From NCBI RefSeq assembly GCF_006716785.1, contig NZ_VFPQ01000002.1, positions 434,001 through 498,000 of the forward strand: a DNA stretch of 64,000 nt, written 5' to 3'. How positions within the stretch are numbered: position 1 is the stretch's first letter; every line of letters starts with the position of its first letter. The stretch comes from Thermopolyspora flexuosa. Its GTDB lineage: Bacteria > Actinomycetota > Actinomycetes > Streptosporangiales > Streptosporangiaceae. Positions 5,565 through 31,924 of this stretch are shown here, piece by piece. Both the position numbers and the translations under genes were made by a program. A model generated the notes under the pieces. The model saw nothing but the letters and a program-made list of their open reading frames with translations. It was not told where the DNA came from and did no database searches.

Positions 5565-6755
5565 GTGAATGGCGGCGGATATGAATACGGCGACGACGTC
5601 GGTCGGCGCATCGCGCACTGGCGCAAGGTCCGGGGGCTCACCCAGTCGGGGCTCGCCCGCGAGGCGCACGTCTCGCGAAGTCTGATCGCCCAGGTGGAGG
5701 CCGGGCACAAGCCCGCCACGTCCTCGCTGGTCGCGGCCGTGGCCGCCGCGCTGGGCGTGGAGCCGGCGCTGCTGTCCGGCCCGCCGTACCGCAGGGAGGA
5801 CGGCCGCGGCGACGCCGCGCACCGCGCGATCCCCGCGATCCGGCGCGCACTGGCGTACGCGGACCTCGCGCCCGAGGTGGACACGCCCCCGCGCTCGCTC
5901 GACGCGCTCGACGAGGAGCTCGCCACGGTGCAGCGGCTGCAGGGAGCGGCCCAGTACGTGCGGCTCGGCGCGCGGCTGCCCGCGATCATCGAGGAGCTCA
6001 CCGTGCACGCGGTGCAGACCGACCTGCCCCGGGCGTGGCTGCTGCTCAACCGTGCCGACGCGGTCGCGGCCTCGCTCGCCCGGCGGCTGGGCTACCACGA
6101 TCTCGCCCAGGTGGCGATCGAGCGCGCCGCGTTCGCCGCCCAGCGGGCCGACGATCCGCTGCTGCCGCGGCTCGTCGTGCTGTCGCGCGCGCTGCTCCTG
6201 CTCAGCGCCAAGGCGGCGGACCTGGCGTTGGCGATGGCCGTACGGGCGGCCGCCGAGGTCGACCGGGACGAGCCGGGCGGGCTCACCGTGTACGGCGCGC
6301 TGCAGTTGCGGGCCGCGGTCGCGGCCGCGCGCGCCGGGCGGGCGCGGGAGGCCTGGGAGCATCACGGCGAGGCCGAGGAGGTGGCGCGGCGCCTCGGCAA
6401 CGGACCTGATCCGTACGGCCTGCAGGTGCTGCCGGGCAATGTCGCGATTCACGGTTGCGCCATCGCGGTCGAACTCGGCGACTACGACTGCGCGCTGCGC
6501 ATGGACGAACGCATCGTGCTCTCCCCCCGCCTCTGGCCGGAGCGTCGCGCCCACCACGAAATCGATATGGCCCGCGCCTGCCTGGGCGTGGGGCGGCACA
6601 AAGAGGCGCTCCACCGAATCCTGAAAGCGGAAAAGATCGCGCCACAAATGACGCGATATCATCCCACATCGCGCGAAACGGTCATGGAGCTCGAGCGGAA
6701 GTATCGCACCCTTCCGGAATCCCTGCGCGCGCTCGAGCGCCGGATGGGACTCTGA
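5565..6755 (+). CDS. XRE-family transcriptional regulator with TPR-like C-terminal domain
   Basis: A 396-residue regulator. Residues 13-66 form a Cro/C1-type helix-turn-helix (GLTQSGLAREAHVSRSLIAQVEAG). The remainder is all-helical and alanine-rich with tetratricopeptide-like repeats (AWLLLNRADAVAASLARRLG; GRAREAWEHHGEAEEVARRLG; LGVGRHKEALHRILKAEKI). Such HTH-TPR proteins often respond to peptides or small ligands and sit beside secondary-metabolite genes. The GTG start is preceded by GAGGAAGG. A strong hairpin lies 19 bases after the stop, and a methyltransferase gene of the FxLD type follows, so the regulator probably controls that gene or itself. Confidence 0.85.
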   Translation: MNGGGYEYGDDVGRRIAHWRKVRGLTQSGLAREAHVSRSLIAQVEAGHKPATSSLVAAVAAALGVEPALLSGPPYRREDGRGDAAHRAIPAIRRALAYADLAPEVDTPPRSLDALDEELATVQRLQGAAQYVRLGARLPAIIEELTVHAVQTDLPRAWLLLNRADAVAASLARRLGYHDLAQVAIERAAFAAQRADDPLLPRLVVLSRALLLLSAKAADLALAMAVRAAAEVDRDEPGGLTVYGALQLRAAVAAARAGRAREAWEHHGEAEEVARRLGNGPDPYGLQVLPGNVAIHGCAIAVELGDYDCALRMDERIVLSPRLWPERRAHHEIDMARACLGVGRHKEALHRILKAEKIAPQMTRYHPTSRETVMELERKYRTLPESLRALERRMGL

Positions 6756-6773
6756 TAATCGTTTTTGTCAAGG

Positions 6774-6806
6774 CGGCCGTTGTTCACAAGATGTGAACAA
6801 CGGCCG
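6774..6806. terminator. Perfect 15-bp inverted repeat (terminator or operator)
   Basis: Arms of 15 bases (cggccgttgttcaca at 6774-6788 and its exact complement at 6792-6806) flank a 3-base loop, starting 19 bases after the regulator stop. There is no T-run, which is common for actinobacterial terminators. The core TTGTTCACA/TGTGAACAA also resembles a protein-binding palindrome. Confidence 0.6.
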
Positions 6807-6925
6807 TCGCGATTATTTCTAAGGTGTGCAACGGCCCCCGCGACCCCTGGGGAGCAGGTGAGGGATTACAACCGCCGGCCATCGGTTGCGATGCCGGCGG
6901 GCGACGTGCACAAGGGAGAAACGCA

Positions 6926-8209
6926 ATGTCGAGGCCTCGGCCCACCGATGTCGACGCGAGTCCCGCCGCGCCACCGCGCGCGGCCATGGTCGACGGGCTG
7001 CGAGATCTGGGTGACATTCGCGACCCGCGCGTCGCCGCCGCGTTCTTCCGGGTCCCCCGGCACCTGTTCGCACCGGACGAGCCGCTGGAGGCCGGCTACG
7101 CCCTCGACCGGCCGGTGGACCGGCACTTCTCGCGCGTCCGGACGGCCGGGCGCGCCTCGGCCACCCGGCTCGAGGCGATGCTGCTCGAGCAGGCCGGCGT
7201 GGAACGCGGCATGCGCTGCCTGGAGATCGGCGCCGGCTACACCACCGCGCTCCTCGCCGAGCTGGTCGGGGAGGAGGGCGAGGTCGTCGCCGTCGACGCC
7301 GACCCCGACGTCGTCGACCGGACCGCCCGCCGCGTCGCCGCCGCCGGGTACCGCCAGGTGACCCTGTGCCGCGCCGACGGGGAAGACGGCGCGCCCGAGC
7401 ACGCCCCCTTCGACCGGGTGATCGTCACCTCCGGCGCCTGTGACGTGCCGCCGACCTGGATCGACCAGCTCACCGACGACGGCGCGATCGTGGTTCCGCT
7501 GCGCATCCGCGGGCTCACCTGCGGGCTCGTGCTCGAGCGCGAGGACGACCACCTCGTCGCGCGCTCGGCGCAGGTCTGGGGGTTCGTCCCGCTGCGCGGC
7601 GCCGCGGCGTGCGCCGAGCACCTGGTGACCCTCGGCGGGCGGGAGATCGCGTTACGGTTCGACGGGGAACGGCCCGGCGACACCGAGATGCTCGCCGCCG
7701 CGCTCGACGCGCCGCGCGTCGAGGCCTGGTCCGGGGTGCGGATCGGCCTCGGCAAGCCGTTCGAGCTGCTCGAGCTGTGGCTGGCGAGCGTGCTCGACGG
7801 CTTCTGCCTGCTGTCGGTGAACCCCACCCGCGACTCCGGCCGCGTCGATCCGGCGCACCGCGTCGCCTGCCCCGCGATGGCCGGCGCGGGCGGCCTCGCC
7901 CACCTCGCGCTGCGCCGTACCGGCCCCATCGCGGAGTTCGGCGCGCACGCCTACGGCCCCGACGCGGCCCGGCTCGCCGAGGAACTCGCCGAGCAGGTGC
8001 AGGTCTGGGACCGGTACCACCGCGGCGGCCCCGGCCCGCGGATCACGGTCCATCCGGCCGGGGACGCCGCGGGGCCCACGGACGCGGGCCGCCTCCCCGA
8101 CGGCCGCGTCATCGCCAGGCGGCACGTCCGCGTCGCGGTCCGATGGCCCTCGCCGACCGGCCCGGGGTTCGTCCCGCACCCGTGGTACGACACCCTGCAC
8201 GTCGGCTGA
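6926..8209 (+). CDS. SAM-dependent methyltransferase, FxLD-system type (PIMT-like)
   Basis: A 427-residue protein. The N-terminal half is a protein-L-isoaspartate O-methyltransferase-like fold: FFRVPRHLFAPDEP at 41-54, motif I CLEIGAGYTTALL at 98-110, then AVDADPDVVDRTARRV and the acceptor-loop region. The C-terminal 200 residues form an extra domain, as in methyltransferases of FxLD-type lanthipeptide systems, where the enzyme is thought to convert peptide Asp residues. No FxLD precursor peptide, dehydratase or cyclase gene was found in the window, so the natural target here is uncertain. ATG 6926 follows AAGGGAGA. Confidence 0.75.
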   Translation: MSRPRPTDVDASPAAPPRAAMVDGLRDLGDIRDPRVAAAFFRVPRHLFAPDEPLEAGYALDRPVDRHFSRVRTAGRASATRLEAMLLEQAGVERGMRCLEIGAGYTTALLAELVGEEGEVVAVDADPDVVDRTARRVAAAGYRQVTLCRADGEDGAPEHAPFDRVIVTSGACDVPPTWIDQLTDDGAIVVPLRIRGLTCGLVLEREDDHLVARSAQVWGFVPLRGAAACAEHLVTLGGREIALRFDGERPGDTEMLAAALDAPRVEAWSGVRIGLGKPFELLELWLASVLDGFCLLSVNPTRDSGRVDPAHRVACPAMAGAGGLAHLALRRTGPIAEFGAHAYGPDAARLAEELAEQVQVWDRYHRGGPGPRITVHPAGDAAGPTDAGRLPDGRVIARRHVRVAVRWPSPTGPGFVPHPWYDTLHVG

Positions 8210-21583: not shown

Positions 21584-22660
21584 TCAGGTGGCGAGGAACC
21601 GCTCGTAGAAGACGCGGTCGGGCGGCACGATCCCGGCGGTGGCCTGGGTGACCGCGTCGATCAGCGGCGGCGGCCCGCACACGTACACGTCGGGCACCTC
21701 CGGCGCCTCGGCGAGCGCGGCGGCGACCGCGTCGGCCGGGGTGCCCACGCGCCCCTGCCACGACGGCCCCGGCTTCCACACGCACACCTCGTAGCCGAAG
21801 CCGGGCAGCTCGGCCGCGACCGCGTCCAGCTCGGCGACGCCGAACACGTCCGCCTCCTCGTTCACCCCGAGGAACAGCCGCGCCGGATGCGGCTCCTGCC
21901 ACTCGGCCATGTGCCGCACCATGGCGAGCAGCGGCGCCAGCCCGGTGCCGCCGGCCACGAACCAGCGCGGCCGCAGCCCGGTCTCGTGCAGCCCGAACGC
22001 GCCCTGTGGCCCGTGCGCCAGCAGCCGCCCGCCGATCCGGGCGTCCTGCCGCAGGTAGGACGAGAACGCCCCGCCGGGCCGCAGCCGGATGTAGAACTCG
22101 AGCAGCCCCTCCCAGTTCCCGGTGTTGGCGAGCGAGTACGCCCGCTTCACGCCCTCCTCACCGGGCACCTGGAGCTCCATGAACTGCCCGGGCTCGAACT
22201 GGGCGTCGAGGCCGCCCGCCTCGTCCTCGGCGAGCCGCAGCGTCAGCCGTACCGTGTCCCGCGCCACCGGGTCGAGCCCGATGATCTCGGCCTCGCGCAC
22301 CGGGATGCCGCCGTACAGGATCCGCGACGACTCGTACGGCAGCGCCACCGCCAGCGGCTCCCGCGGCACGGTACGGCACAGCAGCACCTCGCCGCAGGCC
22401 CGCCGCTCCTCCGGCAGCGCCGCGGGGCTGTGCGCGCCGAGCTCGTACCCGCCCTGCACCACGGTGGCGCGGCAGGAGCCGCAGGTGCCGCTGCGGCACG
22501 AGGCGGGGAGGGCGGCCCCGGCCTCCGCCGCGGCCTCGAGCACGGTCTGCCCGGGCGCGCAGGTGACCTGGAGCTCCTCCCCGTCGGCGGTGGTGAGGGT
22601 CACCGGGAGGCCGTCGGCCTGCCGCGCGCCGACGGCCCCGGTCTCGGCGATCGAGGTCAT
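21584..22660 (-). CDS. hcr: 2Fe-2S/FAD NADH oxidoreductase (Hcr-like, partner of Hcp)
   Basis: A 358-residue electron-transfer protein. A plant-type ferredoxin domain comes first (residues 18-105) with cluster ligands Cys55, Cys60, Cys63 and Cys95. A ferredoxin-NADP-reductase-like FAD domain follows (RAYSLANT motif), then an NAD-binding domain ending [13 protein letters not shown] and a C-terminal VFYERFLAT. This N-terminal ferredoxin order is as in phenol or methane monooxygenase reductases, whereas E. coli Hcr carries it at the C-terminus. The ATG overlaps the hcp stop (ATGA), so it surely supplies electrons to the hydroxylamine reductase. Symbol by function and context. Confidence 0.85.
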
Positions 22661-24318
22661 GCCCGCTCCAGCGCGCTGGCGAGGTCGGCCTGGACGTCGC
22701 CGATGATCCGCAGCCCGAACCGCTCGGCGAGCCGCTCGGCGAGCGCGGGGGTGAGGAACGCGGGCGGCTGCGGCCCGACGCGGATGTCCTTCACCCCGAG
22801 CGCGAGCAGGGTGAGCAGCACCGCGATCGCCTTCTGCTCGGTCCACGCGAGGGTGAGGGTGAGCGGCAGGTCGTTGATGCCGCACCCGAAGGCGTCCGCG
22901 AGCGCCGCGGCGATCTTGATGGCGGAGTGGCTGTCGTTGCACTGGCCGACGTCGAGCAGCCGCGGGATGCCGCCGATCTCGCCGAAGTCGTGCCGGTTGA
23001 ACCGGTACTTGGCGCAGCCGAGGGTGAGGATCACGGTGTCCTGCGGCAGCGCGAGCGCGAGCTCGCGGTAGTAGTCCCGGCCCGGGGTGGGCCCGTCGCA
23101 GCCGCCGATGAGGAAGAAGTGCCGGATCGCGCCCTGCTTGACCGCCTCCACCACGCGGTCGGAGACGGCGAGCACGCTGTCCCGGGCGAAGCCGACCGTG
23201 ATGTACTCCTCCGGGCCGTCCTCGGTGAACCCGGGCGTCGCCTTCGCCGCCTGGATCAGCGGCGTGAAGTCGTGGTCCGCGATGTGCCGCACGCCGGGCC
23301 AGCCCACCGGGCCGGCGGTGAAGATGCGCCGCCGGTAGCTCGCGTGGGGCTCGATGATGCAGTTCGAGGTCATCAGGATCGGCCCGGGGAACGCGGCGAA
23401 CTCGCGCTGCTGGTCGTGCCAGGCCCCGCCGTAGTTGCCGACGAGGTGCGGGTACGCCTTGAGCTTCGGGTAGGCGTGCGCGGGCAGCATCTCGCCGTGC
23501 GTGTACACGTTGATCCCGGTGCCCGCGGTCTGCTCGAGCAGCGCGGCGAGGTCGCGCAGGTCGTGGCCGCTGACCAGGATCGCCTTGCCCTTGACCGGGG
23601 TGACCCGCACCGCGGTGGGTTGCTGGGCGCCGAAGGTGCCGGTGTTCGCCGCGTCGAGCAGCTCGATCACGGAGAGGTTGAGCCGGCCGAGGCCGAGCGC
23701 CCGCTCGAACAGCTCCTCCACATCCTTGGGGTCCTCGGCGAGGTAGGCGAACGCCTTCTCGATCTCGGCGAAGATCTCCGGCCGCCGGTGGCCGAGCACG
23801 CACGCGTGGTACGCGTAGGCGCAGATGCCCTTGAGCGCGTACAGGTGGAGGTTGCGCAGGCCGACCACGTCGGCGCCGACGATGTCGAGGCCGGCGAGCA
23901 CGCCCTTCGTGCCGGCCTGGCGGCGCAGCCCGTCCTGGTCGGCCTCGGGGCTCCAGGCGGCCGGCCCGCCGAGCGTCTCGGGCTCCAGGCCGCGCGCCCG
24001 CGCCGCCTCCTCGTATCGGGCCCGCACCCGGTCGCGCACGGCCGCGGCCTCGCGCAGCAGCCCGGCGAACCGGGTCGGGTTGAAGTTCACGTTGGTGAGG
24101 GTCGTGAAGACCGCGTAGAGGATGAACTCGGAGGCCTCGTCGTCCGGGACGCCGAGGGAGCGCGCCCTCGTGGCGTACTGCGCGATGCCCTTGACCGCGT
24201 GGAGGAGCAGGTCCTGCAGGTCAGAGGTGATCGCGTTCTTCCCGCAGTTGCCGACGGGGCCGCCACACCCGGGATTCGCACCGCTGCGGTCGGTCTGTTC
24301 GCACTGGTAGCAGAACAC
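22657..24318 (-). CDS. hcp: Hydroxylamine reductase / hybrid cluster protein
   Basis: A 553-residue prismane protein. The N-terminal [4Fe-4S]/[2Fe-2S] ligands are Cys3, Cys6, Cys18 and Cys25 (MFCYQCEQT ... [11 protein letters not shown]). Downstream are [36 protein letters not shown] and [10 protein letters not shown], which carry the ligands of the hybrid 4Fe-2S-2O cluster. The length matches class I Hcp. The enzyme reduces hydroxylamine or nitric oxide and protects against nitrosative stress under low oxygen. It is followed by its reductase, preceded by a Crp/Fnr regulator gene, and has an FNR-like box in its promoter. Confidence 0.96.
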
Positions 24319-24383
24319 GTCGTCTCTCCCGTGAGTACTGGCGGTTACCGCCGCGATCCTGCCGGGGGGACGACGTGGTTTCC

Positions 24384-24397
24384 TTGACGCGCGTCAA
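24384..24397. promoter_or_regulatory. FNR/DNR-like box upstream of hcp
   Basis: TTGACGCGCGTCAA is a perfect TTGAC-N4-GTCAA palindrome, the pattern recognised by Crp/Fnr-family proteins. It is 66 bases upstream of the hcp start and overlaps the stop codon of the Crp/Fnr gene itself. Confidence 0.75.
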
Positions 24398-25143
24398 CTC
24401 GACGGCGTCAGCGGCCATACTGTGGCGGAACTCACGACCTGCTCAAGCCGGTCGACGTCGTGCAGGGTGATGCGCCGCCCCCGCACGCTGATCAGCCCGT
24501 CCGCGGTCAGGTCGCGCAGCACCCGGGAGAGGGTCTCGGGGGCGATGTTGAGCCGGGAGGCGAGCACCTGCTTGCGGGTGGGCAGCACCACCACCCGCTC
24601 CCCGGGCGTGGCCTCGCCGGCGTCCGCCTCCGCGGCGTCCTCGCCGGGCTCCTGGCTGAGCAGGAAGCCCACGACCCGCTGGATGCTCGAGCGCAGCGAG
24701 TACGCCTCGACGTCGCGGATGAGGCGGCGCAGCCGTACCGCCATGTTGGCGAGCAGGCGGCGGGCGAACGACGGGTCCCGGTCGATCAGGTCGAGCACGG
24801 CGGTGCTGGAGACCGCGAGCAGGGTGGTGGCGACGAGCGCGGTCGCGGTGACCGGGTACCGCTGGCCGTCGAACACCACGGCCTCGCCGAAGCTCTCCCG
24901 CAGGGTGACGATCTCCACGACCTTCTCGGCCCCGTCCGCGGTGGAGACCGAAAGCTGCATCTGGCCGCGCAGCACGTAGTAGAACCCGCGGACCGGGTCC
25001 CCCTGGTGGAAGAGGATCTCCCCCTTGTCGAGCCCGATGACGTGCGAGCCCGCCCGGATGATCTCCATCTGCTCCGGGGTGAGCCCGGTGAACAGCGGTA
25101 GCTCACCCAGCAGCTCCGGCGGCGCCGACGCGGTCCTCCCCAC
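24394..25143 (-). CDS. Crp/Fnr family transcriptional regulator (Hcp operon regulator)
   Basis: About 249 residues. The N-terminal cyclic-nucleotide-binding-like domain is visible as LFTGLTPEQMEIIRAGSHV, GEILFHQGDPVRGFYYVL and RESFGEAVVFDGQRYP; no N-terminal Cys cluster is present, so oxygen sensing by FNR-type Fe-S is unlikely. The C-terminal winged helix-turn-helix includes TRKQVLASRLNIAPETLSR. An acidic insertion (EPGEDAAEADAGEATPGE) separates the domains' final parts. The start is uncertain: GTG 25143 is chosen, but GTG 25191 is in frame. Immediately upstream of hcp on the same strand, it probably activates hcp-hcr, possibly sensing NO through haem like DNR/HcpR. Confidence 0.85.
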   Translation of the reverse strand: MGRTASAPPELLGELPLFTGLTPEQMEIIRAGSHVIGLDKGEILFHQGDPVRGFYYVLRGQMQLSVSTADGAEKVVEIVTLRESFGEAVVFDGQRYPVTATALVATTLLAVSSTAVLDLIDRDPSFARRLLANMAVRLRRLIRDVEAYSLRSSIQRVVGFLLSQEPGEDAAEADAGEATPGERVVVLPTRKQVLASRLNIAPETLSRVLRDLTADGLISVRGRRITLHDVDRLEQVVSSATVWPLTPSS

Positions 25144-25254
25144 GGCCCCGAGGCTACCGCAGGGCCCGCCCACCCCCGCCGGGTACGGCACGGCCGGACG
25201 CCTCGCCGCCCCGCGCGAGGGTACGGCGAGCCGTCCGGCCGTCCGATGGGCGCC

Positions 25255-27498
25255 TTAGAGGACCGCGCCCGAGCTGTCCCGGACCTTGGGCGCCTTGCGC
25301 TTCTGCGGCTCGGGCGGCGGCTGCTTGCTGAACCGCTCGAGCTCGATCGAGGTCGGCCCGGCGATGAACGAGGACGAGGCCGTGCCGGCCACGATGCCGA
25401 TGATCAGCGCGATGGCGAAGTCCTGCAGCGAGTCCCCGCCGAAGAACGCCAGTGCGGCGAGGATGAACAGCGCGCCGAGACCGGTGTTCACGGTACGCGG
25501 CACGGTCTGCAGGATCGCGGTGTTCACCACCTGCGGGAACGGCGTGCGGCGCTGCATGCCCCACAGCTCGCGCACCCGGTCGAACACCACGACCTTGTCG
25601 TTCACCGAGTAACCGATGATGGTGAGCATCGAGGCGAGGAAGACGCCGTCGATCGGCTTGTTCAGCCAGACGAACGCGCCGACGACCGCGGCCACGTCGA
25701 CCACGAGCGCGATCACCGCCGCGGTGCCGAAGGTCCAGCGGAACCGGAACGCGAGGTAGAGGAGCTGCGCGGCGAGCGCGACCAGCAGCGCGATCAGTGC
25801 GTTGCGGCTCAGCTCCGCGCCGAGGCTCGGCCCGATCAGCTCGTCACGCTCCTTGGTGACGTCGCCGATCCCCTGGTCGAGCGCCTGCTCGATCTTCACC
25901 ACCTCGTCGGCGGTGATCTGCCCGGTGCGCACCGAGATGGTGTCGCCGGACGACTGGACCACGGCGTTCGGGTAGCCGGCGTCGGCCACGATCCGCCGCG
26001 CGGTGTCGGCGTCGACCGACTTGGAGGTGGCGAACTCGACCACCCGGCCGCCGGTGAACTCGACGCCGAAGTTGAGCCCGCGGGTGGCGATGCCGGCGGC
26101 CGCCGCGACGACGATCAGCGCGCCGATGACCAGCCACAGCCGGCCCTTGCCCATGAGGTTCGGGTTCCGCTTGGTCACCCAGGTGCGGACCCGGCCCACG
26201 CTGCCCAGACCGGAGACCTTGGGCCCGATCCGGTTGATGAACAGCCCGGCGACCGCCCGGGAGACCACCATCGCGGAGATCAGCGAGGCGAGCACACCGA
26301 TGGCGAGCGTCACGCCGAAGCCCTTCACCGGGCCGCTGGCGAGCCAGAACAGCAGCGCCGCGGCGAGCAGCGTGGTGATGTTGGAGTCGGCGATCGCGCT
26401 CCAGGCGTTCTTGAAGCCGCGGTCGAGCGCCGCCCGCAGGCCGCGCTTGGGGCTCTGGCCGTACTCCTCCCGCGCCCGCTCGAACACGAGCACGTTCGCG
26501 TCGACCGCCATACCGATGGCGAGCACGAAACCGGCGAGGCCGGGCAGGGTGAGCGTCGCCCCGAGGGCGACCAGCGCCGCGTACGAGATGAGGCCGTAGG
26601 CGGCGAGCGCGACCGCGGCGGCGAGGCCGACGAGGCGGTAGATCACGAGGATGAACAGCGTCGTCATGATCACGCCGGCCACGGCGGCCTTGGCGCTCGC
26701 CTCGATCGCCTCGGCGCCGAGCGTCGGGCCGAGGGTGCGCTGCTCGATCAGCTCCAGCGGCACCGGCAGCGCACCACCCTTGATCAGGATGGCGAGGTTC
26801 TGCGCCTCCTCCTGGGTGAAGTTGCCGGTGATCTGGGTGCTGCCGCCGGTGATGCCCGCGTTGCAGACGATCGACGGGTCGACCTGCGGCGACGAGATGA
26901 TCTTGTTGTCGAGCACGATCGCGACCCGGCGCTTGGGGTCGCCGGGGTCCGCGCAGGCGGCCTTGCCGGTGAGCTGCTGCCAGGCCTTCGCGTCGCGGAA
27001 GTCGACCGTGACGAAGTGGCCGATGCCCTGCTGGAAGTCGGAACCGGCGGCGGCGTCCTCGACCCCTTCACCGGTGATCGCGGCCTTGCCGAGCTTGAGC
27101 TTCTGCCCGGACTCGTCGGGCAGCGCGTCCTTGTCGTTCTCCTCGGCGATGCCCTCGACCGGGTGGAAGGTGAGCTGCGCGGTCTGGCCGATCACCTCGG
27201 CGGCCTTGCGCGGGTCGAGCACGCCGGGCAGCTCGACGGTGATCCGGCGCTCACCGGTGACGTACAGGTTGGGGTCGACGACGCCGAGCGCGTCGGCGCG
27301 GCGCCGGAGCACGTTGAGCGCCCGCTCGGTCGCCTCCTTGTCGGCCTTGACGTTGGGCGCGTCCTTGGCCTCGAAGACGAGCTGGGTGCCGCCGCGCAGG
27401 TCGAGCCCTAACCGCGGCGGGATGGTGTAGGCGAGTACGGCGGAGGCCGCGATGATGACGAACGCGACCACCGCGCGCCAGATCGGCGCACGTGACAT
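25255..27498 (-). CDS. secDF: Protein translocase SecDF, fused
   Basis: A 747-residue fusion of SecD and SecF. The SecD half starts with TM1 and the P1 domain (LGLDLRGGTQLVFEAK), then the periplasmic beta-rich domain and six TMs. The SecF half starts near FGVEFTGGRVVEF and has a second set of TMs with GYSVNDKVVVFDRVRE. The fused protein uses the proton gradient to pull Sec substrates out of the channel. ATG 27498 has GGAGG five bases upstream, better than the in-frame GTG at 27510. Actinobacteria usually carry separate secD and secF, with a fused copy as a second set; the location without yajC or relA supports the latter. A small secreted protein gene lies just upstream. Confidence 0.95.
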   Translation of the reverse strand: MSRAPIWRAVVAFVIIAASAVLAYTIPPRLGLDLRGGTQLVFEAKDAPNVKADKEATERALNVLRRRADALGVVDPNLYVTGERRITVELPGVLDPRKAAEVIGQTAQLTFHPVEGIAEENDKDALPDESGQKLKLGKAAITGEGVEDAAAGSDFQQGIGHFVTVDFRDAKAWQQLTGKAACADPGDPKRRVAIVLDNKIISSPQVDPSIVCNAGITGGSTQITGNFTQEEAQNLAILIKGGALPVPLELIEQRTLGPTLGAEAIEASAKAAVAGVIMTTLFILVIYRLVGLAAAVALAAYGLISYAALVALGATLTLPGLAGFVLAIGMAVDANVLVFERAREEYGQSPKRGLRAALDRGFKNAWSAIADSNITTLLAAALLFWLASGPVKGFGVTLAIGVLASLISAMVVSRAVAGLFINRIGPKVSGLGSVGRVRTWVTKRNPNLMGKGRLWLVIGALIVVAAAAGIATRGLNFGVEFTGGRVVEFATSKSVDADTARRIVADAGYPNAVVQSSGDTISVRTGQITADEVVKIEQALDQGIGDVTKERDELIGPSLGAELSRNALIALLVALAAQLLYLAFRFRWTFGTAAVIALVVDVAAVVGAFVWLNKPIDGVFLASMLTIIGYSVNDKVVVFDRVRELWGMQRRTPFPQVVNTAILQTVPRTVNTGLGALFILAALAFFGGDSLQDFAIALIIGIVAGTASSSFIAGPTSIELERFSKQPPPEPQKRKAPKVRDSSGAVL

Positions 27499-27540
27499 GA
27501 AAGCCTCCACAGGCTGAACGGAGAAACGGATCGGGAAACG

Positions 27541-27885
27541 TCAGCGTGTGGAGGCGCCGGGCGGGGCCCGGGGCGGGGCGACGGAGCGGGTGAGCACGGG
27601 GACGGCGGCGGGGCCTGCGCTCTCCACCGGCCCGCTCGTGCGCGGCCGGGCCGGTACGTCGCCGCGCGGCAGCAGGGCGAGGGTGCCGCCGACGGTCGGG
27701 GCGCCCTTGGCCACCTGCAGGGCGAGCAGCGCCGCGCCGTACGGGGCCTGGCCGAGCGCCGGGTCCTGGGTGCCGGGCGGCTGCTGCGTGGCGGTGACCG
27801 CCCGCGCGGCCTCGTCGGCGTTCCGTCCGGTACCGGTGAGCAGGCACAGCAGAAGCAGCAGCACCGCGGTGACCCTGCTGCGCAT
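27541..27885 (-). CDS. Small exported protein of unknown function
   Basis: A 114-residue protein with a clear signal peptide (MRSRVTAVLLLLLCLLTGTG) and no other motif; the mature part is Ala/Pro-rich and probably unstructured. A strong GAGGAGGG precedes ATG 27885, supporting translation. It is 42 bases upstream of secDF on the same strand, so the two may be co-transcribed. Confidence 0.55.
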   Translation of the reverse strand: MRSRVTAVLLLLLCLLTGTGRNADEAARAVTATQQPPGTQDPALGQAPYGAALLALQVAKGAPTVGGTLALLPRGDVPARPRTSGPVESAGPAAVPVLTRSVAPPRAPPGASTR

Positions 27886-28080
27886 GCTCCCTCCTCGCGT
27901 CCCGTTGCGCCAACGGTACCGTGACCGGACGGTGTACGAGTCCGTCCATCCTCGCCGGTTTGCCGCGCGCTTACCGATGGGAAGAAAGGGTTAACCGGGA
28001 CGCGCACGCGATCCGGGCGCAGGAGACCCGGGGTTTTTACCCCATGCTTTTCTGCGTGGCCTGGGCTATGGTGAGGCAAT

Positions 28081-28431
28081 ATGGGCGGATATTGGCGGAT
28101 TTTCCGCCGGATAGGCGCGGTGAGCGCGATCACGGCAGGGTGGGCCCTGCTGGTCGCGCTGCTCGCCGTGTCCACATCCGTCCTCGGCGCCCGTGCCCAT
28201 GACCCTGCCGACCCGGCTCCCGCAGGGCCCTGGATCAGCCAGTCGAGCGGCGTGCCCCTCGCCTACGCCGCGCCCCGGGAGGACCCGCCGGCACCCTGCC
28301 TGCCGACCCGGCACGTGGCCCGCTCCCCGGAACTGCCGCTTCCGCTACCCGACGCGGAGGCGGAGGCGATACGCAGCCCGCAGCAGTTCGCGTTCCGCTG
28401 CGCCGACTCCCGCAGCCCGCCGCTGATCTGA
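28081..28431 (+). CDS. Hypothetical small membrane/exported protein
   Basis: A 116-residue protein with one N-terminal hydrophobic helix (AVSAITAGWALLVALLAVSTSVLGA) and a proline-rich extracytoplasmic tail containing two cysteines. No family is recognised. A plausible -10 (TATGGT) sits 16 bases before the ATG; with so short a leader and a weak ribosome-binding site, the call is moderate. Confidence 0.45.
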   Translation: MGGYWRIFRRIGAVSAITAGWALLVALLAVSTSVLGARAHDPADPAPAGPWISQSSGVPLAYAAPREDPPAPCLPTRHVARSPELPLPLPDAEAEAIRSPQQFAFRCADSRSPPLI

Positions 28432-28606
28432 TCTTCGGTACGTCCCGGCGGCGGCACACGTCGTCCGGGTGGCTTCCATGCCTTCATCACCGCACGGCGG
28501 CGGCGACCTACGGCCACCGCCGCCTCCGGCATACCGTCACGCCCGCACACGCCGTTGCCGGCACGTGACGGGGTCGTGTTCACCCCACCCAAGGAGTGAT
28601 GTCGCC

Positions 28607-28948
28607 ATGGCCGACATCAGATCTGTCCACGCCCTCATGCGCGCCCATGACCGCCATGAGGCCCAACTGGACACCCTGCGCGACCTGCTGACCGAGCGGC
28701 TCGCCGCCGCCCGGGCCGAGCTCGCGCAGGCGCCCGCGGCGCTCCGCCGTACCCACCCGGCGCGGCGGCGCATCGGCGAGCTCGAGGCCGCGCTCGACCG
28801 CATGGAGCGCGGCCTGTACGGAATCTGCCGTGGCTGCGGCGCGTTCATCGAGATGAGCGTGCTGCTGCACGCTCCGCAAGACCAGGAATGCGCCGAGTGC
28901 CGCCGCGCGAGCGAGCGGCGGGCGGGCCCGCGGCGGGCGGCGGTATGA
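28607..28948 (+). CDS. DksA/TraR C4-type zinc finger protein (first of pair)
   Basis: A 113-residue protein with a long N-terminal helical hairpin (RAHDRHEAQLDTLRDLLTER; RRRIGELEAALDRMERGLYG) and a C4 zinc finger with Cys74, Cys77, Cys95 and Cys98. This is the DksA/TraR layout; such proteins insert the coiled coil into the RNA polymerase secondary channel. The coil tip lacks the DxxDxA acidic motif of true DksA, so the role may differ. ATG 28607 follows AAGGAG. Its stop overlaps the ATG of the next gene, an actin-like ATPase, giving tight coupling. Confidence 0.85.
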   Translation: MADIRSVHALMRAHDRHEAQLDTLRDLLTERLAAARAELAQAPAALRRTHPARRRIGELEAALDRMERGLYGICRGCGAFIEMSVLLHAPQDQECAECRRASERRAGPRRAAV

Positions 28949-29805
28949 ACCCGCCGGACGGCCCCGCCCGGGCGTGGGCGGGCCGCGGCGTCGCCCTCGC
29001 CCTCGACCTTGGCACCGCCCGCACCAGGACCGTGGTGCCCGGCGGGAGCGCCATCCTCGACCGGCCGTCGTGCGTGCCCTCGGCGGACGGTACGGCCGAG
29101 CCGGTCTGGCCGATCCGGCACGGGATGGTCGCCAGCATGGCGGCCTGCCACCGGCTGGCCCGGACCGTGTTGCGGGAGGCGCTCGACCAGGCCGCCGGCG
29201 TGTCGGCGGACCCGGCCGGTGACGGCGACCCCCTCGGGCGCGTGGCCCGCGTGCTCGTCGGGGTGCCGGTCGCGGCCACGGCCACCGAGCGCCGTGCCGT
29301 ACGGGCCGCGGTCGGGCGGGCGGTGGACTGCCCGATCGTGCTCGTCGAGGAGCCGCTCGCGGCCGCCATCGGGTGCGGCGTGGACGTCACCGCCTCCCGC
29401 CCCCGGCTCCTGCTCGACGTGGGCGCCGGGATCATCGAGGCCGTCGTGATCACCGACGCGGCGGTCGCCGAGGCGGGCGCGCTCCAGGTGAGCTGCACCG
29501 CGTCGGCCGGGCTGCCCGGCCACGCCGTGGAGGCGGTCACCGACCTCGTCGCCGACCTCGTGCGCAGGCTTCCGCCACACCAGCGGCTCGGCGTGCGCGC
29601 CGGTGGGCTGCTGCTCACCGGCGGTGGCGCCGCCCAGCCGGACCTCGCGGGCCGGCTCGGCGCCGGACTCCGGCTCACCGTTCATCCCGCCGCCCGGCCC
29701 GCCCACGCGACCATCCGCGGTCTCACCCGGCTCTGCCTCGTGCCCGAGCTCGCCGAGCGGGTGACCGCGTCCGAGCCCATCGACATCATGAAAGGAAGTG
29801 TCTGA
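28945..29805 (+). CDS. MreB/Hsp70-like actin-fold ATPase, shortened
   Basis: A 286-residue actin-superfamily protein, shorter than MreB (about 340). The phosphate-1 loop VALALDLGTARTRTVV is at residues 16-31, EEPLAAAIGCG is the connecting helix, phosphate-2 is LLLDVGAGIIEAVV, and the adenosine motif is LLLTGGGAAQ. It lacks the longer subdomain segments used in filament formation, so it may not polymerise. The ATG overlaps the stop of the upstream DksA/TraR-like gene (ATGA), and a second DksA/TraR-like gene begins 3 bases after the stop. The operon arrangement suggests a joint role of unknown nature. Confidence 0.78.
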   Translation: MNPPDGPARAWAGRGVALALDLGTARTRTVVPGGSAILDRPSCVPSADGTAEPVWPIRHGMVASMAACHRLARTVLREALDQAAGVSADPAGDGDPLGRVARVLVGVPVAATATERRAVRAAVGRAVDCPIVLVEEPLAAAIGCGVDVTASRPRLLLDVGAGIIEAVVITDAAVAEAGALQVSCTASAGLPGHAVEAVTDLVADLVRRLPPHQRLGVRAGGLLLTGGGAAQPDLAGRLGAGLRLTVHPAARPAHATIRGLTRLCLVPELAERVTASEPIDIMKGSV

Positions 29806-29808
29806 ACC

Positions 29809-30138
29809 ATGACCTCGACCGGACTCAGCAGCGTTCAGATCCAGGCCCTGCGGCAGCAGCTGGAGGAGCAGCTCCAGCAGCGGCTGAGCCAGATGGAGAG
29901 CCTGAAGGCCTCGGCGGAGGGCGGTACCGCCGCCGAGATGAGCTGGCAGGACGTCGAGGTGGCGATGGCGGCCACCGACCGCGCCATCGCCGAGACCCGG
30001 CGTTGCCTGGAGATGCTCGACAACGGCACCTACGGCCGGTGCGAGCAGTGCAACGCCGACATCCCGTTCGAGCGGCTGAAGATCCGGCCGCTGGCCCGCT
30101 ACTGCATCACCTGCCAGCGCAAGCGGGAAGCGGCCTGA
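29809..30138 (+). CDS. DksA/TraR C4-type zinc finger protein (second of pair)
   Basis: A 109-residue protein with a glutamine-rich helical N-terminus (QALRQQLEEQLQQRLSQMES), a second helix (EVAMAATDRAIAETRRCLEM) and a C4 zinc finger: Cys78, Cys81, Cys99 and Cys102 in RCEQCNADIPFERL and YCITCQRK. It matches the TraR/DksA family better than the first copy at the finger (GRCEQC...C..C). It begins 3 bases after the MreB-like gene, with GAAAGGAAG upstream, so all three genes form one unit. Confidence 0.88.
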   Translation: MTSTGLSSVQIQALRQQLEEQLQQRLSQMESLKASAEGGTAAEMSWQDVEVAMAATDRAIAETRRCLEMLDNGTYGRCEQCNADIPFERLKIRPLARYCITCQRKREAA

Positions 30139-30182
30139 CCCACGGGCTTCCGCCGCCGGCCGGAGGCGTCCCCACGACCACG

Positions 30183-30263
30183 CCTCCGGCCGGCGGCCGG
30201 TACGCGACACCTCCGGCCGGAGGCCGGTACGCGACACCTCCGGCCGGAGGCCGGTAGGCGAAA
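30183..30263. repeat. Three 27-bp tandem repeats with internal palindrome
   Basis: Three head-to-tail units of 27 bases (30183-30209, 30210-30236, 30237-30263) each hold the palindrome CCTCCGGCCGGAGG (one substitution in unit 1) and a GGTAcGCGA tail. They start 45 bases after the second zinc-finger gene. They could form strong hairpins (terminator) or bind a dimeric protein. Only three differences from the unit are seen across the last two copies. Confidence 0.8.
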
Positions 30264-30367
30264 CCGCCCGCCGGTCGGCCTCGGCGGGGCGTGCGAGCGG
30301 GTGGGCGCGCACGTCGGCGCCGATCCGCGGCATTGCCGGGGCGACCGACCGGAAGTACGTTCCAGTA

Positions 30368-30658
30368 ATGAACGTCGTGCATCCACCGCGCGTCGCCTGG
30401 GAGGGCGCCCGCACCTTCGTCACGGCGGCGGGCTGCGACGTGTACTGGTGGCTCAGCGAGATGGTCGGCCGCTACCTCGGCCTCATGTTCGAGCTCTACC
30501 TCGCGGAGACCCGGGCACGGCTGCGCCACCGCGACGATCCGTACGCGGAGATGAGCCTCTGGCGGGTGTACCTGCAGACGCTCCTCGAGGAGCGCCCCGA
30601 GCTGCAGCCCATCGTCCGGCAACTGATCGACGAGACCGGGTACCGCCTCGCCTGCTGA
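30368..30658 (+). CDS. Conserved hypothetical protein
   Basis: A 96-residue protein, predicted all-helical: VAWEGARTFVTAAGCDVYWWLSEM, YLGLMFELYLAETRARLRH, WRVYLQTLLEERPELQPIVRQLIDE. No signal peptide or known motif. Its sequence is rich in aromatic residues and not low-complexity, unlike random GC-rich frames, so it is likely a real gene. Upstream lie the tandem repeats; downstream is pyrD. Confidence 0.6.
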   Translation: MNVVHPPRVAWEGARTFVTAAGCDVYWWLSEMVGRYLGLMFELYLAETRARLRHRDDPYAEMSLWRVYLQTLLEERPELQPIVRQLIDETGYRLAC

Positions 30659-30835
30659 GACCCGGTACGGCACGGCGACCGGCCCGGCGGCGCCCGCGGA
30701 CGCCCTGGACGGCCGGGGTCGCCGACGCGTGCCGCCCTGCGGAGGCGCCGGGAACGGCACGGTGCCGGCCGGACCGGCGTGGACGGGCAGGGTGTCGCAT
30801 GGTGCAGGGGTTGTCTCGGGCTAGGGTTGCCCGTG

Positions 30836-31924
30836 ATGTATCGCGTTGTCTTCAGCCAGGTCCTGCAGCGGCTCGACGCCGAGGACGCGCACCGGGCGAC
30901 CGTCCGGGCGCTCGCGGCGATCTCCCGGGTGCGCCCGCTCAACCGGGCCATCCACCGGAGGCTCGCGCCGCACGACCCCGCGTTGCGGGTGAGCGCGTTC
31001 GGGGTGCACTTCCCGTCGCCGTTCGGGCTCGCCGCCGGGTTCGACAAGAACGCCGTCTGCTTCGAGGCGCTCGCCGCGTTCGGCTTCGGCCACGTCGAGG
31101 TGGGCACGGTCACCGCGCACGCCCAGCCGGGGAACGCCCGGCCGCGGCTGTTCCGGCTGCCCGCGCAGCGGGCGGTCATCAACCGGATGGGCTTCAACAA
31201 CGACGGCGCCGCCAAGGTCGCGCGCCGCCTCGCCCGGGTGCGCGGGGTGCCGGTGGTCGTCGGGGTGAACATCGGCAAGACGAAGGTCGTGCCGGAGTCC
31301 CGGGCCGTCGCCGACTACGTCGCGAGCGCCCGCGCGCTCGCCGACCGCGCCGACTACCTCGTGGTGAACGTCAGCTCGCCGAACACGCCCGGGCTGCGCG
31401 ACCTGCAGGCGGTCGAACGGCTGCGGCCGCTGCTCACCGCGGTCCGCGAGGTCACCGAAAGCCTGCCGCGCCGTACCCCGCTGCTGGTGAAGATCGCGCC
31501 CGACCTGGCGGACGAGGACGTGGACGCGGTCGCCGACCTCGCGGTGGAGCTCGGCCTCGACGGGATCATCGCCACGAACACCACGATCCGCCGCGACGGG
31601 GTGCCGAGCACGGAGGCCGGCGGGCTGTCCGGCCGTCCGCTCAAGGAGCGCTCGCTGGAGGTGCTGCGGCGGCTGTACGCCCGGGTCGGGGACCGGCTCA
31701 CCCTCGTCTCGGTCGGCGGGGTGGAGGACGTCGACGACGTGTGGGAGCGGCTGCTCGCCGGGGCCACCCTGGTGCAGGGCTACACCGCGATGGTCTACGA
31801 GGGCCCGCTGTGGGCCGCGCGGATCAACCGCGCCCTGTCCCGCCGCCTCCGCCTGCACGGCCACTCCTCGATCCAGGAGGTCATCGGCAAGACCGCGCCG
31901 GCCCGGACCGGCCGCGACGCCTGA
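30836..31924 (+). CDS. pyrD: Dihydroorotate dehydrogenase (quinone), class 2
   Basis: A 362-residue enzyme oxidising dihydroorotate to orotate with electrons to quinone, step 4 of pyrimidine synthesis. An amphipathic N-terminal extension for membrane contact ([20 protein letters not shown]) marks class 2. Landmarks are [53 protein letters not shown] (with the catalytic Ser), [10 protein letters not shown] and [13 protein letters not shown]. The ATG at 30836 matches the family start; GTG 30833 is also possible. It is apart from other pyr genes. Confidence 0.95.

Follow-up and report, generated by a model that had tools for sequence, protein, structure and literature searches.

The three coupled genes at 28607-30138 of the window, by which the whole 64-kb stretch of DNA analyzed is meant, encode a shortened MreB (mini-MreB) between two DksA-like zinc-finger proteins, and the pairing is conserved, with a same-strand DksA-like gene adjoining the short MreB in 76 of the 94 loci read in relatives. 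Judged from its residues, the mini-MreB is probably an ATP-binding, hydrolysis-impaired and non-polymerizing actin fold. The explanation we put first, and hold tentatively, is a conserved regulatory module linked to the cell envelope and secretion, in which an ATP-bound mini-actin would hold the coiled coils of the DksA-like proteins; complex formation, a contact with the polymerase and a role in secretion are the elements of it that we infer. The trio and its near surroundings are arranged as listed.

25255-27510, minus strand: fused SecDF of 751 amino acids, a neighbor divergent to the trio
27541-27885, minus strand: small protein A of 114 amino acids, probably exported, with the C terminus ...RAPPGASTR
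28081-28431, plus strand: small protein B of 116 amino acids, with a hydrophobic segment and the C terminus ...PQQFAFRCADSRSPPLI
28607-28948, plus strand: DksA-like protein 1 (P0001) of 113 amino acids, with a predicted coiled coil and the C4 zinc finger C74/C77/C95/C98
28945-29805, plus strand: mini-MreB (P0002) of 286 amino acids, an actin-fold core that has lost subdomain IIB and roughly half of IB, with nucleotide-site residues retained and Ile163 in place of the catalytic Thr
29809-30138, plus strand: DksA-like protein 2 (P0003) of 109 amino acids, Pfam zf-dskA_traR, with C78/C81/C99/C102
30183-30274, no strand assigned: 27-bp G+C-rich unit in 3.4 copies with the palindrome CCTCCGGCCGGAGG, directly after the third gene

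The junction of P0001 and P0002, GTATGAAC, holds an ATGA overlap at 28945-28948 and that of P0002 and P0003, TGAACCATG, leaves a gap of 3 bases, so the open reading frames and junctions read just as the initial annotation had them for three coupled genes; all eight of the zinc-finger cysteines it named are likewise present, with P0003 carrying an extra cysteine, C66. The sequence AAGGAG lies ahead of the first ATG (P0001) and AAAGGAAG ahead of the third (P0003). A promoter scan of 27400-30800 finds no sigma-70-like site (shuffle mean 0.0), and two terminator-like sites occur in the same region where 0.4 are expected, at 28030-28043 on the plus strand and 27524-27504 on the minus strand. The 27-bp repeat at 30183-30274 is, from its sequence, a possible transcript end. 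The Rfam scan of 24000-31000 at gathering scores gives no structured-RNA match.

A link to hypoxia finds no support here, as the degenerate motif GGGNCCGNNCGGCCC (OsdR/DevR-type box, two mismatches) is absent between 27886 and 28606; the same search returns 162 matches in the 64-kb window compared with a shuffle mean of 114. A box of this type is predicted upstream of SCO6164 in PMC5069765. A phage origin was considered and rejected; in PHROGs, P0003 matches a DksA-like family and, weakly (E 0.005), one unknown family, and P0001 and P0002 match nothing. Directly beyond SecDF, the minus strand at 21587-25191 carries genes for a hybrid-cluster protein (hydroxylamine reductase), an unidentified neighbor and a Crp/Fnr-type regulator. 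The hybrid-cluster protein and Crp/Fnr-type regulator genes recur in the sister locus L040 and are not seen in the compared flanks of other relatives.

In the order sample, 60 of 297 genomes carry the short MreB with scores of at least 171.8 bits, followed by a match near 103 (profile from nine relatives, best 8 candidates per genome scored, counted by hand); in genus g83, 55 of 150 genomes carry it with scores of at least 194 bits, three of these having an internal stop (profile from ten g83 relatives, counted by hand). The gene layout of g83 (family f20) leads us to take this genus for Streptomyces; Nonomuraea, placed by NCBI in the Streptosporangiaceae, is a member of family f1. The first 74 loci read comprise 60 from the order sample, ten from g83, three from families f22 and f30 and the sister locus L040, with L041, L042 and L043 being duplicates of other loci that are counted once, and 20 further g83 loci were hand-picked from the 55 genomes. 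In the 74 loci, genes were called adjacent when a mini-MreB match (at least 50 bits) and a DksA match (E 1e-3) shared a strand and lay no more than 1.5 kb apart, the DksA profile having been built from zinc-finger motif matches in 49 of the same loci. By this measure a DksA-like gene adjoins the mini-MreB in 63 of the 74 loci, and 13 of the 20 further ones have such a gene as well, which shows that the arrangement is not unique to this strain, although the loci are related and the counts are not independent events. The linkage exceeds chance since the genome studied here has only 3 zf-DksA Pfam matches in 5.77 Mb, two of them outside the trio.

The gene orders in the 74 loci are DksA-mini-DksA (26, in two of which DksA1 is split into two matches), DksA-DksA-mini (nine, all from g83), DksA-mini (13), mini-DksA (15) and mini-MreB alone (11, of which three carry a flag for a nearby contig end). 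Loci in two families (f1 and f20) carry two DksA-like genes, and f22 and f30 bring the families with one or more to four. Over all 94 loci, the mini-MreB is without an adjoining same-strand DksA gene in 18, some of which end at a contig edge, and because of them it may also act without a DksA partner. Ten plasmid records contain a match; one Nonomuraea gerenzanensis record (11.85 Mb) aligns to 94% of P0002 with 51.6% identity and the remaining nine cover 53-61%. In a 396-genome sample of the phylum, full-profile matches above about 110 bits come, among the matches listed, only from this genome and members of its class, with a profile that is weak for distant mini-MreBs (about 100 bits in g83).

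The two flanking proteins had been described as DksA/TraR zinc-finger proteins, which holds by Pfam for P0003 (47.9 bits to zf-dskA_traR, PF01258, with a cut-off of 24.9), whereas for P0001 Pfam finds nothing at E 0.001, and it is called DksA-like from its retained C-x2-C-x17-C-x2-C zinc-finger spacing and a modest fold match. Modeling of P0001 with AlphaFold2 (4 sequences, mean pLDDT 81.7) yields a fold whose top Foldseek matches are DksA structures, with modest E-values (1.6e-3 and weaker). Neither protein reaches the NCBIfam DksA equivalog cut-offs of 105 and 115.5 bits, P0003 scoring 64.0 and 53.0 and P0001 34.5 and 30.9. A further difference lies at the tip of the coiled coil. The acidic motif D-x-x-D-x-A (D71/D74 type), which E. 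coli DksA has and which one of the two other DksA-like proteins of this genome also has, is absent from both P0001 and P0003. It occurs in one of 57 upstream copies and in none of 41 downstream copies and is thus missing in 97 of 98. In an alignment of DksA matches scoring at least 50 bits, many of the downstream copies retain one Asp in the tip loop (GAD), and P0003 has a Glu nearby. A 101-column tree of the f1 and g83 copies leaves each group whole, with supports of 91-94 for three groups and 54 for one, and does not indicate the g83 equivalent of the downstream copy.

These features bear directly on the possibility that the trio exerts classical transcription control, with the DksA-like pair being secondary-channel factors of RNA polymerase gated by the mini-MreB, which is the idea of the initial annotation taken strictly. 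The DksA-class zinc finger and fold are consistent with such a role, and SCO6164 of Streptomyces coelicolor is termed an RNA polymerase-binding DksA-like protein of unclear function in PMC9739823. The missed equivalog cut-offs and the lost tip point the other way, as D74 is essential to DksA activity at the polymerase active site, though a tip mutant is able to support DNA repair (both from PMC6488371). Because the tip is missing in nearly all copies, classical DksA action is doubtful for the two proteins, with some other mode of polymerase binding being conceivable, and we consider this control of the classical type an unlikely account of the trio.

The middle gene, described in the initial annotation as a shortened actin-fold protein, fits that description, with P0002 passing the Pfam MreB_Mbl cut-off of 27 bits at 83.5 bits (E 1.6e-23) and falling well below the NCBIfam MreB subfamily cut-offs (59.9 of 365.75 bits for TIGR00904 and 88.5 of 293 for NF010539). 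The AlphaFold2 model of P0002 (5 sequences, mean pLDDT 77.4, pTM 0.80) superposes on Thermotoga maritima MreB (PDB code 1jcg) with a Z score of 26.7 and an rmsd of 2.3 over 248 of 335 residues. The genome also encodes two canonical MreBs, and the mini-MreB departs from the four-subdomain layout (IA, IB, IIA, IIB) of such proteins in two places. The stretch that we assign to part of subdomain IB has 22 residues compared with 42 in a canonical MreB of the same genome, and the stretch assigned to IIB with its edges has 27 compared with 89. In the Nonomuraea pusilla mini-MreB (L041:5986-7134) the site at which IB is shortened holds a long insert of low complexity in which Ala, Gly, Ser and Pro abound. 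A quick tree separates 30 of the 74 mini-MreBs from 24 of the 38 canonical MreBs by one branch with an SH-aLRT of 100, subject to a warning from the program that long branches meet there.

The residues of the nucleotide pocket are largely retained. Asp-158, Gly-160, Gly-226 and Gly-227 of the phosphate and adenosine motifs are conserved in 94 of 94 mini-MreBs, Glu-165 in 93 and Asp-21 in 90 (three of the remaining four being gaps), so that at the level of sequence the capacity for nucleotide binding appears kept. The Asn of phosphate-1 is replaced by Arg in 90 of 94. The catalytic Thr, which is the first Thr of the canonical DIGGGTTE and equivalent to T167, is replaced in every mini-MreB, by Ile in 58, Leu in 31 and Val in 5, and the Glu before the conserved Pro (E136 position) is retained in 42 of 94 including P0002. 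The mini-MreB thus does not carry the catalytic E...T-X-[D/E] motif of canonical MreB, whereas the canonical MreBs of this genome retain both the Thr and the Glu. Weak hydrolysis is expected since the catalytic Thr is lost while the pocket residues are kept. The hydrolysis motif of Caulobacter MreB is E140, T167 and E169, and a Spiroplasma MreB, which is without the motif, releases phosphate slowly and polymerizes nonetheless (both from PMC9597168). Loss of the motif is therefore insufficient to predict loss of polymerization, and it is the missing subdomains that make an MreB-type filament unexpected; in MreB, subdomain IB shifts toward IIB upon polymerization (PMC4051119).

A second alternative starts from the coexistence of the mini-MreB with two canonical MreBs. 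A mini-MreB without IIB and half of IB could cap or poison canonical filaments and so tune wall growth, with the DksA-like genes being merely co-transcribed regulators. Expression in S. coelicolor lends this some support, as SCO6160-SCO6167 are up in a strain with dispersed growth, the rise of SCO6164-6166 being significant by EdgeR and NOISeq and not significant by DESeq2 (0.30, 0.17 and 0.09), in PMC6629963. Against it stand the persistent pairing of mini-MreB with DksA-like genes and the mbl2 deletion, which the same paper cites as leaving sporulation unaffected, and this cytoskeletal role seems to us rather improbable.

In one relative, at locus L123 (genome G289), positions 6528-7883 form a single open frame of 452 codons, in which the mini-MreB is followed, with no intervening stop, by a DksA2-like segment that has both the coiled coil and the zinc finger. 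A complex of mini-MreB with a DksA-like protein is favored because this frame joins both. An internal ATG in the frame is preceded by the SD-like GGAGGT, so that the second part is possibly startable alone, giving two products, and L123 is the only fusion flagged among the 94 loci.

Taken with these results, the initial interpretation of RNA-polymerase-associated factors and a cytoskeletal or chaperone-like ATPase in a possible regulatory complex survives in part. The conserved unit stands, and together with the one-frame fusion it argues for a complex, even with the fusion seen once and two products possible from it. The label of ATPase is doubtful, the catalytic Thr being gone throughout; the terms cytoskeletal and RNA-polymerase-associated are doubtful as well, the first as the protein is short of IIB and roughly half of IB and the second as the D74-type tip is missing in 97 of 98 copies.

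SecDF lies within the stretch read at 37 of the 74 loci and at 15 of the 20 further g83 loci, giving 52 of 94 together; at five of these 15 (L190-L194) the mini-MreB is near SecDF with no adjoining DksA-like gene. A fused SecDF match (E 1e-240 or better) is found somewhere in the genome for 59 of the 60 order-sample genomes that carry the mini-MreB, and also in 101 of the 237 others (both hand counts), which weakens a strict link between the two. In many mini-MreB genomes the fused SecDF is placed away from the mini-MreB locus. In the genome studied here, secD- and secF-like matches also occur separately, on another contig, and a fused SecDF may be redundant with SecD/SecF according to PMC4139356.

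Small proteins A and B, both hydrophobic and probably exported, flank the divergent region and share a recurrent C-terminal tail of R[AS]PP followed by 1-9 residues. The tail is present in 58 small hydrophobic ORFs near the cluster, in 43 of the 74 loci, and in 0 elsewhere in the same stretches, with 14 loci having both small R[AS]PP-tailed ORFs. Among called genes shorter than 260 amino acids, with no filter for hydrophobicity, the tail is found in 48 of 141 near the cluster compared with 0 of 386 elsewhere. Small protein B ends in PQQxxHRxxGSRSPPxx in the f1 loci. The codons of the tail differ synonymously among loci, which suggests selection on the tail at the protein level. A similar filter finds the tail in 1 of the 20 further g83 loci.

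The notion of a dedicated export chaperone, with the mini-MreB being a small Hsp70-type ATP clamp that passes R[AS]PP-tailed proteins to SecDF with the help of zinc-finger co-chaperones, could draw on the clustering of tailed ORFs and on the five loci where mini-MreB stays with SecDF without DksA genes, but we judge it very unlikely given the lack of a substrate-binding domain, the lost catalytic Thr, the near absence of the tail from the further g83 loci by the filter used and how commonly fused SecDF occurs without a mini-MreB. About equally slight is the chance we give to a more elaborate scheme, in which a hydrolysis-dead mini-actin would clamp tip-less DksA-like proteins under the control of ATP, both together serving SecDF as a dedicated export and signaling unit for the R[AS]PP-tailed small proteins. 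We know of no MreB or DksA relative with a role of that kind.

In the preferred reading, that of an envelope- and secretion-linked regulatory module, the trio would supply the cytoplasmic half of a module that actinomycetes conserve and that is connected with both the envelope and protein export. The expression changes of SCO6160-SCO6167 in S. coelicolor, down with glucose and up in dispersed growth, speak for it; the DESeq2 result for SCO6164-6166 and the unaffected sporulation after mbl2 deletion speak against it. The mini-MreB would be a monomeric ATP-loaded switch or scaffold, as opposed to a filament-forming ATPase, and would bind the DksA-like proteins via their coiled coils. Less certainly, the binding and release of ATP might set the amount of free DksA-like protein able to act, the target of which may be RNA polymerase contacted in a way independent of the acidic tip, or something else, and the trigger might be a change in the state of secretion or of the envelope. 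Filamentous actinomycetes retain a third MreB paralogue that is seemingly catalytically crippled. Its persistent pairing with tip-less DksA-like proteins, and the SecDF gene often found near it, suggest both partners and a process for it. If the reading is true, DksA-type zinc fingers would be used outside the polymerase active site and an actin fold would serve as a non-polymerizing switch. A search of the open-licence literature found no discussion of a DksA/mini-MreB complex, nor of the loss of the catalytic Thr in Mbl2, the pairing with DksA across families or the fusion.

Compared with E. coli DksA and TraR, the trio's DksA-like proteins have the same succession of a coiled coil and a C4 zinc finger and differ in falling under the NCBIfam cut-offs and in being without the acidic tip. 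With canonical MreB/Mbl the mini-MreB shares the fold and the nucleotide-pocket residues, and it differs by the absence of IIB, about half of IB and the T167 equivalent and by its own branch in the tree. Another short protein of the actin/Hsp70 fold, EutJ (PDB code 3h1q, a chain of 272 residues), is matched by the P0002 model in Foldseek at rank 48 (E 2e-9, TM 0.53); with 15% identity it lies far below the MreB matches, and it has another role (ethanolamine use, according to the entry title).

The closest known counterpart is the S. coelicolor region SCO6160-SCO6167, which comprises secDF, a secreted protein, garR/garS, two dksA-like genes, mbl2 and a Pro-rich protein. The combination of genes, which the initial annotation did not recognize, is therefore not new, as it matches the layout of SCO6164-SCO6166, reported gene by gene. 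SCO6166 is reportedly shorter and without subdomains IB and IIB. By layout the short MreB corresponds to SCO6166/Mbl2, the link with S. coelicolor resting on published gene order. Mbl2 is a third MreB paralogue and vegetative, as cited in PMC6629963, just as the mini-MreB here stands beside two canonical MreBs. Expression of SCO6160-SCO6167 falls with glucose, with a log2 value of -5.26 for SCO6164, in PMC4848846. Antibiotic production with glucose is under negative control by GarR/GarS (SCO6162/6163), and the authors of that work describe sco6164 as transcriptionally unrelated (PMC11043171). RNA-seq had suggested SCO6165 as a member of the SoxR regulon, an assignment that qPCR rejected (PMC4146615).

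The gene kinds and the divergent layout of SCO6160-SCO6167, with DksA-DksA-mini facing SecDF, are matched at nine of the ten g83 loci L129-L138. Genes that are kinase-like and response-regulator-like, named from sequence, lie between SecDF and the divergent DksA-DksA-mini in L131 and L135, together with a small exported-protein gene in L131. In the locus described here the order is instead DksA-miniMreB-DksA with a small-protein gene ahead of the trio, and the GarR/GarS genes are missing, the interval between 27511 and 28606 containing two called small-protein genes. Common to both are the short MreB with two DksA-like genes, the divergent fused SecDF (25255-27510) and a small protein (27541-27885) for which export is predicted.
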